Part shown: in pieces, positions 383-30,994 of the stretch
Layout of the letters: every line of letters starts with the position of its first letter
Numbering within the stretch: position 1 is the stretch's first letter
Virus record (IMG/VR): IMGVR_UViG_3300021142_001585
Coordinates: 1 to 30,994 of that record
Source: a virus
Reading direction: 5' to 3' (one strand)
DNA length: 30,994 bases
The notes under the pieces: model-generated
Told to the model about the DNA's origin: nothing
Databases searched by the model: none
The model's input: only the letters and a program-made list of their open reading frames with translations
Program-made: the position numbers and the translations under genes

Positions 383-958
383 TTATTTATTGTATTTAAA
401 AGTATATCCGTTTATTGATTCTTTTTTATTTCTACATATAGCAGATATCGTTGAATGCTTTATACATAAATGTCTTGCTGCTTCTCTCATACCTTCCCAT
501 GTTTTTATAAAATTACCATATAAATCAAATTGATCTATGGGTTTTCTTTTTCTTTTAGCAATTTCTCCCCACTTTGGATTTTTTTTACCATATAGTAGAT
601 GTTTTTCTCTTGAAATTAAGTATCCTTTTTTATACATAGGATTTTTTTCTCCTTTCCACTGGTCTTTTACCGTAATTCCTCCATCGCCTGTTTCTTCTTT
701 TAAATTTGCCCAATTTTCGCTATCAACTACGTTAAATATTTTAGAATAATATAGTCCTATTTTAATTAGATCATCTCTATCCTCTGTTTCATGTAATATC
801 CATGTCTTGATATCTTTAGGACATAAATTATGTTTTTTTATATGTAGCTTCCAATATTTGCAGGATCCTAAATAATTATCATGATTATTGAGAGTAGTTT
901 TTCCTAAATAGAATAATCCTAGTGGACTTTGTTTAACATATATCTTAATTAATTTCAT
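383..958 (-). CDS. GIY-YIG-like homing endonuclease with NUMOD3 and NUMOD1 motifs
   Basis: The 191-aa product has a divergent GIY-YIG-type N-terminus (residues 5-45: 'KIYVKQSPLGLFYLGKTT', then 'YLGSCKYWKLHIKKH'), the form common in free-standing phage homing endonucleases. Residues about 100-130 carry a NUMOD3-type segment ('GEKNPMYKKG', 'YGKKNPKWGE'). The C-terminus (about 138-190) is a NUMOD1 helix-turn-helix module ('FDLYGNFIKTWEGMREAARH'). Such enzymes cut an allele lacking the insertion and spread by recombination. The gene sits between the methyltransferase remnant and a GT2 gene, 5 nt from the latter, and is preceded by a structured RNA (970-1068) also found before the HNH gene at 29275-29883. 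The nuclease class is less certain than the homing role. Confidence 0.72.
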   Translation of the reverse strand: MKLIKIYVKQSPLGLFYLGKTTLNNHDNYLGSCKYWKLHIKKHNLCPKDIKTWILHETEDRDDLIKIGLYYSKIFNVVDSENWANLKEETGDGGITVKDQWKGEKNPMYKKGYLISREKHLLYGKKNPKWGEIAKRKRKPIDQFDLYGNFIKTWEGMREAARHLCIKHSTISAICRNKKESINGYTFKYNK

Positions 959-969
959 AAAATAAAAAT

Positions 970-1068
970 GGACCCAGAGGAAGCAAAGATCGGGGAATGA
1001 TCAATGATTCGTAGGTCAAATAAGTTTATTATAGATAGTTAATTCCCCTAACTTTCTATCTTTAATAA
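970..1068 (-). ncRNA. Structured RNA element, copy 1: two hairpins with complementary (kissing) loops
   Basis: Read on the minus strand. Hairpin A (1026-1068) pairs TTATTAAAGAT with ATCTATAATAA (one mismatch) and has an inner GTTA/TAAC stem closing the 7-nt loop GGGGAAT (1042-1048). Hairpin B (971-1017) has an outer GACC/GGTC stem and an inner GATC/GATC stem closing the 7-nt loop ATTCCCC (992-998). The two loops are perfect reverse complements. A U-rich run follows hairpin B, just before the endonuclease ATG at 958. A second copy at 29890-29990 has the same architecture with different but still complementary loops. The role is unknown: terminator, translational control of the endonuclease, or part of a mobile cassette are all possible. 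Confidence 0.75.
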
Positions 1069-10715: not shown

Positions 10716-11157
10716 TGTCGTCTGGTTTTAAATCGTTAAAATACGTAGAGTACCAATTAGGACTACCGTTTGTTGTAAATGTGATGTTACTACCTGATGT
10801 AGCAAAAGTAGTCATATCGTACCCTTGTGTAGTTGTTATTGTGCCTGGAAAAGAGGACGCTGAAGTTATTGTGTACGGTGGAGTGGTATTCGTTACGGGA
10901 CTTATGTATCCGGCTGTTACTCCGAATCCTGGAGTTGGGGTTCCGGTACCTGCATCACCGCAATATACTCTATACGGATCGTATTTATACGGAGTACTAT
11001 ATGGATTACGCGTTTCAATCGGAGACAAATACGTTGGTTCGTCCTTAACTTCGGCCAACTTTTCTTTTAATAAGGTCCACTGTTTAGGAGTCACGTTGTA
11101 TTCGTGAACTCCTTCAGTGAATCCTCGAAGCCATAAAATAAATTGTTGTGAGGTCAT
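10705..11157 (-). CDS. Hypothetical phage protein with a Thr/Gly/Pro-rich C-terminal half
   Basis: The 150-aa protein has a compact helical N-terminus (residues 1-40: 'MTSQQFILWLRGFTEGVHEY', then 'TPKQWTLLKEKLAEV') followed by a low-complexity region rich in Thr, Pro, Gly and Tyr that ends in an acidic tail. A similar N-terminus occurs in other phages as far as I recall, but no function is known. The composition of the C-terminal half would suit an extended or virion-exposed segment. A long plus-strand frame over the same DNA is a shadow. The start overlaps the HNH gene stop by 4 nt. Confidence 0.6.
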   Translation of the reverse strand: MTSQQFILWLRGFTEGVHEYNVTPKQWTLLKEKLAEVKDEPTYLSPIETRNPYSTPYKYDPYRVYCGDAGTGTPTPGFGVTAGYISPVTNTTPPYTITSASSFPGTITTTQGYDMTTFATSGSNITFTTNGSPNWYSTYFNDLKPDDNDR

Positions 11158-11825
11158 AAAATTTTTTTTAATTTTTTTTGGTTTTGAGCTAATATTCGTG
11201 CTTCACTCCAAGGTTTTCCTTTTTTACTTTCACTTATTTTCTTTTTTGTTTCTTCAGTTTTAGGAACGCTAAGTTTTTCTTTATGCGAATTAGATAGTCG
11301 TATCCCTTTAAATCTTTTAGAAACATCAGGTTGAGGCTTTCCTTTTTTTGCTTCACTCATTTTTTTCTTAACCTCTTCTGAATGTTTTATACCAGTTCTA
11401 CCATTATTTTTTTTAATTCCCTTATTTTTATAAGCGCCTTTTCCTAAATAACTTCCTTCCATTCGACCTTTCATTATGTTATCTATTCTTTCTTTAGAGT
11501 GTTTTTTTCCAATTAAGGTCTTACTTATTTTTTTCTTAGTATCTTCAGGACACGCTATGCCTTTTCTTTTTTCCGCAGCGTATTGGTTTATTTTTTTTAT
11601 TTCATCCTTAGATAAATTTAATCTTTGTCTTATTAATATGCACGCATTCCAATCTTGTTGTTTGTAGTGTATGTCGTAATGTTCTTGTATCGAAACCGCT
11701 TTTAAATTTTCTATTGAATTATTATTTCTATTTCCATCTATGTGGTGAATATCATAATGTACTCCATTTTCGTCTAATGGAATAGCTCCGTTGTGATCTT
11801 TCCAGATTTTTCTATAATTTTCCAT
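11154..11825 (-). CDS. HNH homing endonuclease with repeated NUMOD3 motifs
   Basis: The 223-aa protein has an N-terminal HNH domain: 'YDIHHIDGNRNNNSIENL' (catalytic His pair at 27-28, Asn in the loop) and 'SIQEHYDIH' completing the metal site. From about residue 80 there are several NUMOD3-type DNA-binding repeats ('GKKHSKERIDNIMKGR', 'GIKHSEEVKKKMSEAKKGK', 'TEETKKKISESKKGK'). It lies between a GT4 gene and a phage hypothetical gene and has a TATAAATAT element 10 nt upstream (11836-11844). Unlike the copies at 383 and 29275 it has no structured RNA before it. It is a free-standing mobile gene. Confidence 0.87.
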   Translation of the reverse strand: MENYRKIWKDHNGAIPLDENGVHYDIHHIDGNRNNNSIENLKAVSIQEHYDIHYKQQDWNACILIRQRLNLSKDEIKKINQYAAEKRKGIACPEDTKKKISKTLIGKKHSKERIDNIMKGRMEGSYLGKGAYKNKGIKKNNGRTGIKHSEEVKKKMSEAKKGKPQPDVSKRFKGIRLSNSHKEKLSVPKTEETKKKISESKKGKPWSEARILAQNQKKLKKIL

Positions 11826-18758: not shown

Positions 18759-18830
18759 TAGAGCGTATGAGAATCGAACTCATCATTTATCCTCGAAAGG
18801 GATACGTCTTAGCCGCTTGACCAACGCTCC
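18759..18830 (-). tRNA. tRNA-Glu (anticodon UUC)
   Basis: A cloverleaf folds on the minus strand: acceptor GGAGCGT with ACGCTCT (G1-U72 wobble), D-arm GTC/GAC, anticodon stem TATCC/GGATA with loop CTTTCGA (anticodon TTC at 18795-18797), and T-arm ATGAG-TTCGATT-CTCAT. The discriminator base is A, and CCA is not encoded (ACT follows). The 72-nt length fits. The G1-U72 pair is unusual. The decoded codon GAA is heavily used by the AT-rich neighbours. About 75 nt upstream hold only AT-rich sequence. Confidence 0.93.
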
Positions 18831-26746: not shown

Positions 26747-27634
26747 TCAATCTTTGTAGTGCTTTTTAAAATCTTTAAAGTCTCCCCATTCTCTGCTTGA
26801 ATCGATATCGCTTGGTTTTATAGTCGGCTTTGGCATATTACCAGCTACGTTCCAGAACCAATCCCCGTGCTGCCCATGACTCTTCAGGAGCTCCCAACCT
26901 TTGGCATCGTATGTTTGTATAGAATCAAAGGGAGTTTGTATCCTTGAAGCTTTTAGGAACGGTCTATCGTATGTATAAAATTTGGCACGACCAAGTTCTC
27001 CGTCTTGAATATTTCTTGCGACAGCTACTGCATTAAATTCTGTGTTGGGTAAAGCTATCTGTAAAGTTCTAGACAAAACTCCAGTAGAGAATACTGACCA
27101 CATTGTTTTTATGTCTGTGTCCTTAAAATTATCGTAAAATATTCTGACTCCACCGGCAACCACCATCTCGTGCTTTAGACCGAAAGGCAAATATTTTGCG
27201 CCGATTCTTTCTGCGAACTGTTTCGCCCATATGTTTGCGGTAGGCATCGCAGGAATCTTTACGAACAGTGGAATGCCGCCGTTTTCTATTGCGGTTAGTT
27301 GGTGCTCCGAAGCCTCTTTTGACGATGGCATAACTAGGTACAATTTCTTGTTGTACTTCTTGGCCAAATAGCAAAGAGAGTACGGTGCGTAACCGGTTCT
27401 TGGCGCTACGTAAACCATTGCGTCCTCTTTTACTTGCGATATGAAGAAGTCTGCCATTTTGGCTTTACTACCGAATTGAAATTCACTGTCGTCGACTACG
27501 TTGAACCCGTCGTACTGCTTTACTTTGAACGTAAAGTCGTGCTTGTAATCCTTTGTCATGTTCAAGTAGTAGTTTAGGTCCCTACCGTTGGACATGTCCA
27601 AGTTGGATTGATCTGTTGTTTTATTAATGAACAT
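26747..27634 (-). CDS. Fold-type-II PLP-dependent enzyme-like protein
   Basis: From the ATG at 27634 (295 aa). 'EFQFGSKAKMADFFISQV' resembles the GGNKxRKLEYL site of ACC/cysteine desulfhydrase-type PLP enzymes, with Lys57 as the probable Schiff-base lysine. 'GYAPYSLCYLAKKYNKKLYL' and 'ASEHQLTAIENGG' continue the fold, and 'FSTGVLSRTLQIALP' the phosphate-binding side. Substrate unknown. An ATG at 27664 adds ten residues and runs deeper into the upstream HNH gene. With 27634 the overlap is 11 nt (ATGTTCATTAA), suggesting that the homing gene was inserted right against this start. Confidence 0.7.
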   Translation of the reverse strand: MFINKTTDQSNLDMSNGRDLNYYLNMTKDYKHDFTFKVKQYDGFNVVDDSEFQFGSKAKMADFFISQVKEDAMVYVAPRTGYAPYSLCYLAKKYNKKLYLVMPSSKEASEHQLTAIENGGIPLFVKIPAMPTANIWAKQFAERIGAKYLPFGLKHEMVVAGGVRIFYDNFKDTDIKTMWSVFSTGVLSRTLQIALPNTEFNAVAVARNIQDGELGRAKFYTYDRPFLKASRIQTPFDSIQTYDAKGWELLKSHGQHGDWFWNVAGNMPKPTIKPSDIDSSREWGDFKDFKKHYKD

Positions 27635-28304
27635 TAGCTGTGTTTTTAATTTTACAATTTTCAAAATGCCATTGTTTCATTTGATTTATTGCCCCCTCTT
27701 TATCACAATAAGGACAGTGCACCTTCTTTCTTTTTAGCGCTCTATGTTTCATTTTTTTCTGAACATCTAATCTTTTAGCTGGATTATCTATACTTAGACC
27801 TCTAAGTCTTCTAGATTCTCTTAAATCGTCTGAAATATTTTTAGCTTTTTCACTCATTATTTTTTTAGTTTCTAATGAATGTTTTTTTCCACTGTGAATT
27901 TTAGACATGTGGTGTTTCATTTCGTCTGACCAAAATTCATTTTTCATATAGCTAGAATGTAAAATAGAACTTTTTATTTTAGCGTATTCAATTATTCTAC
28001 TACTAGGTGTATATCTAACTTGATTTTTATCTTTTACACTGCACAACATGCTAAATGCTTTTGCTAGCTTATAATTCTCAGGATAAATTTCATGTAATAG
28101 CCAATGGCATAAAAAATGTTCTCTAGCAGTTAATAAAGCTATATTCAAATGATCGTATTGGGTAGCCCACCCTGTTCCTCCTAAACATTTTGGAACTATG
28201 TGATGACCTTCATAATACTCTCCAAGTTTTTTTTTATTTTTTCTAATGCTTAATTCGTCCTTTGCTCTTTTACAAATATCTTCGTAGATTTTTTTATAAT
28301 TCAT
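27624..28304 (-). CDS. HNH homing endonuclease with C-terminal zinc finger
   Basis: The 226-aa protein starts 'MNYKKIYEDICKRAKDE' and has the HNH core 'YYEGHHIVPKCLGGTGW' (H34-H35) and 'LTAREHFLCHWLLHEIYP', a NUMOD3-like segment ('HSGKKHSLETKKIMSEKAKN') and a C-terminal finger 'HCPYCDKEGAINQMKQWHFENC' style (C-x2-C...H...C). It is a paralogue of the gene at 29275-29883, sharing the first 20 residues' pattern and the 'AREHFLCHW' block. TATAAATAT at 28320-28328 is 15 nt before the ATG. There is no structured RNA ahead of this copy. Confidence 0.87.
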   Translation of the reverse strand: MNYKKIYEDICKRAKDELSIRKNKKKLGEYYEGHHIVPKCLGGTGWATQYDHLNIALLTAREHFLCHWLLHEIYPENYKLAKAFSMLCSVKDKNQVRYTPSSRIIEYAKIKSSILHSSYMKNEFWSDEMKHHMSKIHSGKKHSLETKKIMSEKAKNISDDLRESRRLRGLSIDNPAKRLDVQKKMKHRALKRKKVHCPYCDKEGAINQMKQWHFENCKIKNTANVH

Positions 28305-29274: not shown

Positions 29275-29883
29275 TTATAATTTATAATATTTTAAATTTC
29301 CTTTTTTTATTCTATATATAATTGCAGCTGACGTGATTCCAAAATATAATCCTGCGTCTTTTACTGAATCAAATATAATATTATTTTCAACACCTATAAC
29401 TTTTTTCCTTTGGGTGCTAGGTTTTCCAAATTGAGGATTATCTTTTCCGTATCGACTTCTACCCATTTTAGATTTAGATTCTTCAGAGTGCTTGTATCCA
29501 ATTACTTTTAACTTAATTCTATCAATTATTTCTTTAGAGTGCTTTTTTCCATAAAAAGGATTATTTGATCCAGCACTTAATCTAGCCATCTCTTCTCTAG
29601 CGTATTCAACTATTTTAGAGCTGGGAACGTATTGTTTTGCACTATTGGATTTAATATGAGACATTTTATCAAAAGCATACATTAATTTATAATCATTAGG
29701 ATATAACTCATGCAATATCCAATGGCATAAAAAATGTTCTCTTGCTGTTAATTTGACTATATTGCTTGAATCATCTGATCCTCCCATACACTTAGGGATT
29801 ATATGATGTTTTTCACAATAATCTGTTAAAGATCTATTTTTAGCTCGATCTATAATTTGATCGTATATTTTTTTATAATTCAT
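29275..29883 (-). CDS. HNH homing endonuclease with NUMOD3 and NUMOD1 motifs
   Basis: I start at the ATG at 29883 ('MNYKKIYDQIIDRAKNR'), matching the start of the paralogue at 27624; a further ATG at 29901 would lie inside the structured RNA. The HNH core is 'YCEKHHIIPKCMGGSDDSS' and 'LTAREHFLCHWILHELYP'. NUMOD3-type repeats follow ('FYGKKHSKEIIDRI', 'GYKHSEESKSKMGRSRYGKD'), and the C-terminus is a NUMOD1-like module ('ENNIIFDSVKDAGLYFGITS'). Between groEL and the GDSH gene it forms a compact unit with the RNA at 29890-29990. Confidence 0.87.
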   Translation of the reverse strand: MNYKKIYDQIIDRAKNRSLTDYCEKHHIIPKCMGGSDDSSNIVKLTAREHFLCHWILHELYPNDYKLMYAFDKMSHIKSNSAKQYVPSSKIVEYAREEMARLSAGSNNPFYGKKHSKEIIDRIKLKVIGYKHSEESKSKMGRSRYGKDNPQFGKPSTQRKKVIGVENNIIFDSVKDAGLYFGITSAAIIYRIKKGNLKYYKL

Positions 29884-29889
29884 AAAAAA

Positions 29890-29990
29890 TGGTCCAATCA
29901 AGTATTGTCGAAGCTGCGAACATTCGACATACTCTATGGACCAATAAGTTTATTATAGATTCTATTCGCAGTAGTTTCTATCTATAATAA
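29890..29990 (-). ncRNA. Structured RNA element, copy 2: two hairpins with complementary (kissing) loops
   Basis: Minus strand. Hairpin A (29950-29990): a perfect 11-bp stem TTATTATAGAT/ATCTATAATAA and an inner CTA/TAG stem closing the 7-nt loop CTGCGAA (29965-29971). Hairpin B (29890-29943): outer TGGTCCA/TGGACCA, then AGTA-type pairs, inner GTCGAA/TTCGAC, and a loop containing TTCGCAG (29914-29920). The loops are perfect reverse complements. Hairpin B is followed by U6 and the endonuclease ATG. Conserved with copy 1 (970-1068): the outer stem of hairpin A and the AACTTATT linker. The loop pair differs but stays complementary. Confidence 0.78.
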
Positions 29991-30001
29991 GTATCTTCAA
30001 T

Positions 30002-30781
30002 TTACATCATTCCAGCTAAAGGATTTACTTCGTCTTTCTCGTTGTCTCCTTTTTTCTCAAACAAAACGCTTTCAGTCGTTAAAATAGTACCAGCGACAGA
30101 GGCCGCGTTTTTAAGCGCAGTAATTACCACTTTCGCAGGATCTATAATGCCGGCTTCGATTGCGTTGACCATTTCGTAATTTTTAGCATCATATACTTCA
30201 CCGTCTTTGGGAATAAAATCGTACCAATTCTCTACTCCAGCATTATTTAAAATTTTCTTAAATGGAGCTTGAATAGCATTTTTAATAATAGATTGACCAA
30301 TTGTAAGAATCTGCAATTTTTTATCTTGCGAGTTACTTAAAGAAGCTTGAAATAAAGCAGATCCACCTCCAGATACAATACCGTCAGCCAATGCAGCTTT
30401 AGTTGCGTATAAAGCATCTTCTACTCTATCTTTCTTTTCTCTAATTTCAATATCAGAATTACCTCCTACGTTGATGATTGCAACACCACCTACTAATTTA
30501 CCCAATCTTTCTTGTAGTTTTTCTTTCTCGTAGAAAGAAGTTGCTTTTTCGATTTGTTCTTTGATTTCCTCTGCTCTTGCTTCAATTTTTGCTTCATCGC
30601 CTTTGCCATCCACAATTGTAGTTTCTTCTTTTGACACAGTGGCTAAACGAGCTGTACCAAGAAATTCTCCTAACTGTTGAGCTGTCAACTTATCCAATTT
30701 ATGGCCTTTGTCTTTAGATATAACTTGACCTCCGGTTAAAATAGCGATGTCTTCTAAAATTAGAGTTTTTCTTTCTCCAAA
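30002..30781 (-). pseudogene. groEL: GroEL chaperonin, C-terminal half only (5' part missing)
   Basis: Homology to GroEL runs from 'FGERKTLILEDIAILTGG' to the C-terminus 'NPLAGMM', about 259 residues: the return from apical to intermediate domain and the equatorial domain ('DYEKEKLQER'-type 'FYEKEKLQERLGKLVGGVA', 'SGGGSALFQ', 'AASVAGTILTTESVLF'). It corresponds to the E. coli protein from about residue 280. The typical GGM repeats at the end are absent. Upstream of 30781 the frame continues into unrelated sequence ('MPARSSKIENSPIRIF'), so the first half is lost or misjoined. A functional protein is unlikely as written. The phage neighbours suggest a phage-borne groEL; a misassembly is equally possible. 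Confidence 0.82.
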
Positions 30782-30812
30782 ATCACGTTTTTTGGATATG
30801 AACAGATATGCA
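30766..30812. repeat. Direct repeat copy A at the groEL break
   Basis: This 47-bp segment beginning TTTTTCTTTCTCCAAAATCA matches 30913-30958 with few differences and then ends in AACAGATATGCA. Its left part is groEL coding sequence (FGERK region), so the second copy is a fragment of the same gene next to unrelated DNA. Confidence 0.75.
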
Positions 30813-30912
30813 AAGATACGGATAGGGGAATTTTCGATTTTTGAGGAGCGAGCAGGCACGCCTTTTCTGAAAACAGGTTTACAACAAGAATTTTTTTCCT
30901 CGAAAAATTAGC

Positions 30913-30958
30913 TTTTTCTTTCTCCAAAATCAAGGTTTTGGAAATGAACAGATATGCA
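30913..30958. repeat. Direct repeat copy B
   Basis: 46 bp matching 30766-30812, 147 bp away, again starting TTTTTCTTTCTCCAAAATCA and ending in AACAGATATGCA, where it runs into the 10-bp tandem repeat. Confidence 0.75.
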
Positions 30959-30980
30959 CAGATATGCACAGATATGCACA
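30951..30980. repeat. 10-bp tandem repeat (GATATGCACA x3, with a decayed fourth)
   Basis: Three exact units of GATATGCACA, then GATTTAAGCA. Not a CRISPR: units are 10 bp with no spacers. Confidence 0.85.
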
Positions 30981-30994
30981 GATTTAAGCACATA

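Follow-up and report, generated by a model that had tools for sequence, protein, structure and literature searches.

The leader and its surroundings in the window

The window, the whole stretch of DNA analysed, is a virus record of 30,994 bp in which all the coding features discussed here lie on the minus strand. It carries two copies of a leader of about 110 bases that consists of a hairpin A with a 7-nt loop, a linker, a hairpin B with a complementary 7-nt loop, a U-rich spacer and an AUG (Table 1). Without the start codon, the RNAs correspond to 29,990-29,884 (copy 2) and 1,068-959 (copy 1) of the minus strand. Copy 2 reads, in minus-strand order, TTATTATAGAT..CTGCGAA..ATCTATAATAA-ACTTATT-GGTCCA..TTCGCAG..TGGACC-ATTTTTT-ATG. 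The initial annotation, made from the letters of the DNA, had recognized this element and its layout, and both proved real; what has to be amended is the strand, which is minus, and the extent of the kissing contact, which spans 7 bp. As it had also stated, the loops of copy 2 differ from those of copy 1 and are again perfect complements, while the outer arm of hairpin A and the linker are identical in both copies. The HNH-type gene that it assigned to copy 2 has a NUMOD3 domain; the GIY-YIG-like character of the gene behind copy 1 derives from an N-terminal motif and from relatives, Pfam finding NUMOD1 only. The nested fold of copy 2 is well beyond that of shuffled sequences (z -4.55), whereas that of copy 1 is not (z -0.99), so that minimum-energy folding alone is not the evidence for the element. 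Elsewhere in the window, one tRNA gene (Rfam tRNA, 57.4 bits) is found at 18,759-18,830 of the minus strand, and short direct repeats GAACAGATATGCACAGATATGCACAG lie at 30,790-30,981, where the contig ends, within the groEL fragment or on its border; they may represent an assembly edge.

Table 1. Coordinates of the two leaders and neighboring genes in the window.
Feature	Position	Strand	Basis or remark
Copy 2, whole leader, hairpin A 5' arm to ATG	29881..29990	-	sequence; CM R2 86.1 bits
Copy 2, hairpin A 5' arm TTATTATAGAT	29980..29990	-	overlaps position of ATATTTAT promoter-like motif, here ATACTTAT
Copy 2, loop A CTGCGAA	29965..29971	-	sequence
Copy 2, hairpin A 3' arm ATCTATAATAA	29950..29960	-	sequence
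Copy 2, linker AACTTATT	29943..29950	-	
Copy 2, hairpin B, outer stem GGTCCA / TGGACC	29891..29942	-	
Copy 2, loop B TTCGCAG	29914..29920	-	exact complement of loop A
Copy 2, U-rich spacer ATTTTTT	29884..29890	-	7 nt, shortened (10-12 in most of the family)
HNH-type homing endonuclease gene behind copy 2	29275..29883	-	NUMOD3; phrog_655 homing endonuclease; ATG at 29,883
groEL 3' end	30002..30859	-	copy 2 cassette directly behind groEL stop codon
Copy 1, whole leader, 5' arm to ATG	956..1068	-	sequence; CM R2 114.6 bits
Copy 1, loop A GGGGAAT	1042..1048	-	sequence
Copy 1, linker AACTTATT	1019..1026	-	
Copy 1, loop B ATTCCCC	992..998	-	exact complement of loop A
Copy 1, U-rich spacer ATTTTTATTTT	959..969	-	
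GIY-YIG-like homing endonuclease gene behind copy 1	383..958	-	NUMOD1; ATG at 958; close relatives L010, L014

Two subfamilies in environmental phages

Three patterns were used to collect relatives: one restricted to the outer stem and a portion of the linker retrieved 30 stretches in viral contigs, one fixing only the linker and the U-rich start gave at least 119 matches, and one built on the linker with a short hairpin A gave at least 120. The family splits into two subfamilies that have in common the linker, the U-rich spacer and the position of the AUG. Subfamily 1, found in large phages and including both copies of the window, is characterized by a long hairpin A whose outer stem hardly varies (alignment A1); subfamily 2, from smaller phages, has a short hairpin A, such as GGAT-GTAGGAT-ATCC, and other B stems (alignment A2). 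The covariance model of subfamily 2 detects one member of subfamily 1 (E 6.6e-5), and the linker varies more than the patterns suggest, since copies found by model alone carry, for instance, AAAATATT or AAACTCATT. In hairpin B of subfamily 2 (L045:141-247 and relatives), the purine-rich internal-loop strands UGAA and GGA, placed opposite each other, remain constant while the loops change, and could possibly form a bend motif that lets the loops meet. A scan with the linker as anchor, allowing one or two mismatches, was dropped because its noise equaled that of scrambled anchors.

The carriers are many uncultured phages. Promoter type, related genes of Bacteroidetes phages and related terminases indicate that they are probably Bacteroidetes phages. 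No convincing leader was found in the cultured phages immuto, DAC19, PTm1 and 1/32 or in one 735-kb record, and blastn of single elements against phages and plasmids gave no match. A pattern scan of genome contigs, a weak search, produced 22 matches across many phyla, none with the loop contact; in 299 genomes of one bacterial family the leader was not found, although this search was also weak, its filter having scored few candidates.

Neither window copy nor any of ten subfamily 2 loci matched Rfam release 15 at the gathering score, drum and skipping-rope, the phage motifs with which comparison had been advised, being among the families covered; these resemble the leader in being structured phage RNAs, but do not match it. 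A search at relaxed E-value yielded only chance-level matches far below the gathering scores. No description of the motif was found in the open-access literature. The earlier statement that no described family fits is thus upheld, and the leader appears to be an RNA family new to description, abundant in environmental phages and with good support from the covariation of its loops.

Covariation between the two loops

A set of 133 candidates was collected ignoring hairpin A and the loops. A perfect complement of at least 7 nt between the two loop regions was present in 122 of them, compared with 4.3% of mismatched pairs used as a control; three of the 122 were judged to be due to chance, leaving 119 candidates. 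The absence from other genomes that would have weakened a functional reading is not observed. Among the 11 sequences lacking such a complement, two (L080 and L132) are evident members without loop A and the rest are not member-like, so that few members were lost by selecting for complementarity. In both L132 (minus strand, ~2,956) and L080 (minus strand, ~956) hairpin B is intact and loop A lost, which makes them natural contact mutants.

The 47 distinct loop blocks hold 22 loop sequences, and all 329 kissing cells are Watson-Crick, with no G-T, although the blocks were selected by perfect complementarity and the complete pairing is in part a product of that selection. Double changes occur in 125 cells, compared with a mean of 33 after shuffling and 13-17 in slid controls, and the covariation score is 0.97 versus 0.21. 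The inner stems of hairpins A and B covary too. Covariance models, which take no account of the contact, yielded further copies that the patterns had missed, and in all 12 of those checked the loops pair. The claim, first made from the two window copies, that changed sequence with kept pairing reflects selection on a tertiary contact thus extends to the family, and the leader is almost certainly a real cis-acting RNA selected for its kissing contact. A ribozyme or a guide RNA was considered and rejected, given that no family matches and that the variable letters pair inside the element.

A given gene family can follow different loops, and one loop can precede genes of different families. All 14 checked records with several leaders have differing loops, one phage having six, a pattern that chance could produce as well (P ~0.12-0.16 and 0.35), and no claim of insulation is therefore made. 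It could be asked whether the element acts at the DNA level, for example as a site at which cassettes recombine and are exchanged, the pairing then occurring in a cruciform or in single-stranded DNA. The free exchange of loop and gene family, the lack of G-T among the loop cells and the fact that the subfamily 1 element travels with its endonuclease gene would suit such a site; the strict orientation, the fixed distance to the start codon, the promoters at fixed distance upstream and the choice of the loop set by perfect complementarity speak against it, and we regard it as very improbable.

Promoters and the outer stem

In 72 of the 76 distinct subfamily 2 copies, 2-5 nt separate hairpin A from the end of a TAnnTTTG box, the known -7 box of Bacteroidetes, so that transcripts probably start with hairpin A. 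The 5' flank of subfamily 1 carries ATATTTAT, which overlaps the 5' arm of hairpin A, a feature that the initial annotation had not included. This 8-mer looks like a phage promoter motif, possibly of late type: of its 115 distinct occurrences, 44 are found in the 40 nt before the starts of leaderless genes and only 8 inside open frames. It is altered in both window copies (ATACTTAT and ATCTTTAT). Two leaderless HNH genes of the window, at 11,154-11,825 and 27,624-28,304, have ATATTTAT 19-24 nt before their ATG (11,844 and 28,328, minus strand); since they possess the motif alone, the leader is not required for expressing HNH endonuclease genes.

This overlap recalls the scheme known for T4 I-TevI (PMC2988022), in which case only transcripts entering from the upstream gene would form the long hairpin A, and the leader would be a read-through switch. 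Besides the position of ATATTTATTATAGAT over the 5' arm, compensatory changes of the outer stem in three subfamily 1 lineages (L027, L054 and L084) lend modest support to this proposal. Against it, the outer-stem pairs mostly never vary and one is broken in several copies, the long hairpin leaves the start codon uncovered, and subfamily 2 has no outer stem (one proposed for it was rejected, being no better than permuted pairs). A switch of this type is accordingly held to be quite unlikely.

The start region

The spacer between stem and AUG measures 9-12 nt in 107 of 122 candidates, and most shorter values arise where the stem was extended too far into the U run. In subfamily 1, the lengths of the two spacer halves compensate each other (rho -0.57, P 0.004), but not in subfamily 2 (rho -0.10). 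The start region of the leaders contains 84-89% T; the remaining genes of these phages instead have 49% A there, and only 1 of 736 of them has nine or more T in the last 12 nt before the start; this U-richness was partly preset by some search patterns, although it is seen too in scans without a fixed spacer. No Shine-Dalgarno sequence was seen at the leaders, whose paired stem ends 9-12 nt short of the AUG. Bacteroidetes are known to initiate translation without Shine-Dalgarno pairing and to favor A at -3, and A-rich start regions are preferred in Flavobacterium (PMC6847099).

Hairpin B folds stably, at -18 to -19 kcal/mol on average. Hairpin A is weak alone (mean -2.8 to -4.8 kcal/mol), and the 7-bp contact contributes about -9 kcal/mol. 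That a hairpin probably located at the 5' end should be held by this contact fits a simple stabilizer, a sealed end guarding the message from decay with no further regulation; such a device, however, leaves unexplained both the U-rich start region and the restriction to replication-initiation and endonuclease genes, and is given little probability.

The fixed distance to the AUG favors a role in translation. Against this reading, spacer compensation is missing in subfamily 2, the window has two leaderless HNH genes, and a hairpin B followed by 5-7 U would fit an intrinsic terminator as well. The last point leads to the serious rival of translational control, transcription attenuation, in which hairpin B and the U run would terminate transcription behind the promoter, the kissing contact would tune the process, and most transcripts would be RNAs of ~90 nt unless a phage factor permits read-through. 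In most copies 5-7 U directly follow the GC-rich base of hairpin B, whose stability also speaks for this proposal. A terminator, on the other hand, needs no AUG at 9-12 nt, and several copies have only 4 U or interrupted runs, yet keep the length of the spacer. Moreover, these phages have plain terminators that consist of simple, perfectly paired stems, such as GAGCCCTCTTCGGAGGGCTTTTTT, and no antiterminator fold is visible, because hairpin B can form together with the kissing contact. On balance, attenuation is judged possible but somewhat unlikely.

Downstream genes and mobility

Every gene downstream of a subfamily 1 leader looks like a homing endonuclease of HNH or GIY-YIG type, and the ten tested by Pfam contain mostly NUMOD, HNH or GIY-YIG domains; the RNA is thus not tied to one nuclease type, as had been proposed from the window. 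The element was found upstream of phage homing endonuclease genes, where a consensus search had been suggested, but its distribution is not limited to nucleases. Subfamily 2 precedes replication-initiation proteins of unrelated families (DnaA-like or DnaD-like organizer, Lin1244_N, O-like, primosomal), which share a common role and not a common protein family, as well as NUMOD4/HNH endonucleases and a methyltransferase-like protein.

With the gene that follows the copy 2 cassette as the query, 80 loci were fetched. At empty sites, about 20 nt separate the groEL stop from the next ATG; in the window, the leader begins within ~10 nt of the groEL stop, and the stop codon of the endonuclease is followed by AGTT-ATG, the native tail. 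This comparison places leader and endonuclease together in the inserted segment. The groEL site is occupied by several different endonucleases with different loops, and the position behind the groEL stop is an endonuclease hot spot in related phages (window 29,883-30,002; L001, L016, L030 and L426). The leader is present in 2 of 14 further relatives, as expected for a mobile cassette.

Comparison with known systems

Related cases are the pseudoknots of the IncI-alpha/IncB repZ/repA leaders and the 7-nt kissing loops of ColE1 RNAI-RNAII, where loops pair in an RNA controlling replication initiation and an antisense RNA is involved. The leader likewise shows loop pairing in an RNA of replication initiation, but no antisense RNA is evident, and no opposite-strand promoter was seen at the leaders on reading the sequence.

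Endonuclease genes of T4 use RNA structure in their leaders for translational control (PMC2988022). In the T4-type leaders (I-TevI, I-TevII, I-TevIII, segB and Aeh1 mobE), as here, RNA structure is placed directly before endonuclease genes; a late-type promoter lies near or inside it, to which the promoter-like ATATTTAT at the 5' arm of subfamily 1 may correspond. In contrast, these are single hairpins covering the Shine-Dalgarno sequence and serve endonuclease genes, whereas the present RNA has two kissing hairpins, no Shine-Dalgarno sequence in view, and is found on replication-initiation genes too (PMC2988022). The seg43 hairpin of Aeromonas phage 25 is, like the leader, stable and located just upstream of the start region without covering it, but it is a single hairpin with no loop-loop contact described (PMC2988022). 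The T4 gene 32 operator also combines a 5' pseudoknot with an unpaired A/U-rich start, an arrangement matched here by the covariation and the U-rich spacer; in that case, a single-strand binding protein acts on its own gene and the topology is different, and no such gene was found behind the leaders (PMC535899).

A model for the kissing-hairpin leader

These observations can be integrated in a model in which the main function of the leader would be the cis-acting control of translation initiation of the downstream gene, a proposal to which we give about even chances. Transcription would start on the first base pair of hairpin A or beside it, making this hairpin the 5' end of the message. Loop A would then kiss loop B over 7 bp, forming a compact domain of ~85 nt whose end, 9-12 nt before the AUG, would leave a U-rich stretch unpaired where these phages usually have an A-rich start region. 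What the sequences show directly is the architecture of the RNA, the covariation of its loops, its place at start codons, the classes of gene that follow and its inclusion in the inserted segment; the transcription start, the translational nature of the control and its sign and signal we infer. The kissed domain would present or hide the U-rich start to the 30S subunit or to an RNA-binding protein of phage or host. In large phages, homing endonucleases carry the leader within the mobile cassette, together with a promoter-like motif of their own.

A broader and more tentative notion, which we think rather improbable, is that the leader represents a separate class of RNA device, in which a kissing-hairpin leader starts translation at a U-rich site lacking Shine-Dalgarno and A-rich context, and which phages, probably of Bacteroidetes, would use for unrelated replication-initiation families, mobile endonucleases having taken it over. 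The leader is tied to two gene classes that need tight dosage, namely replication initiation and homing endonucleases, and its 22 natural loop pairs are a ready set of 7-bp kissing contacts for RNA design. The U-rich start behind the kissed domain would offer a direct test of how phages control starts on ribosomes of the Bacteroidetes type.
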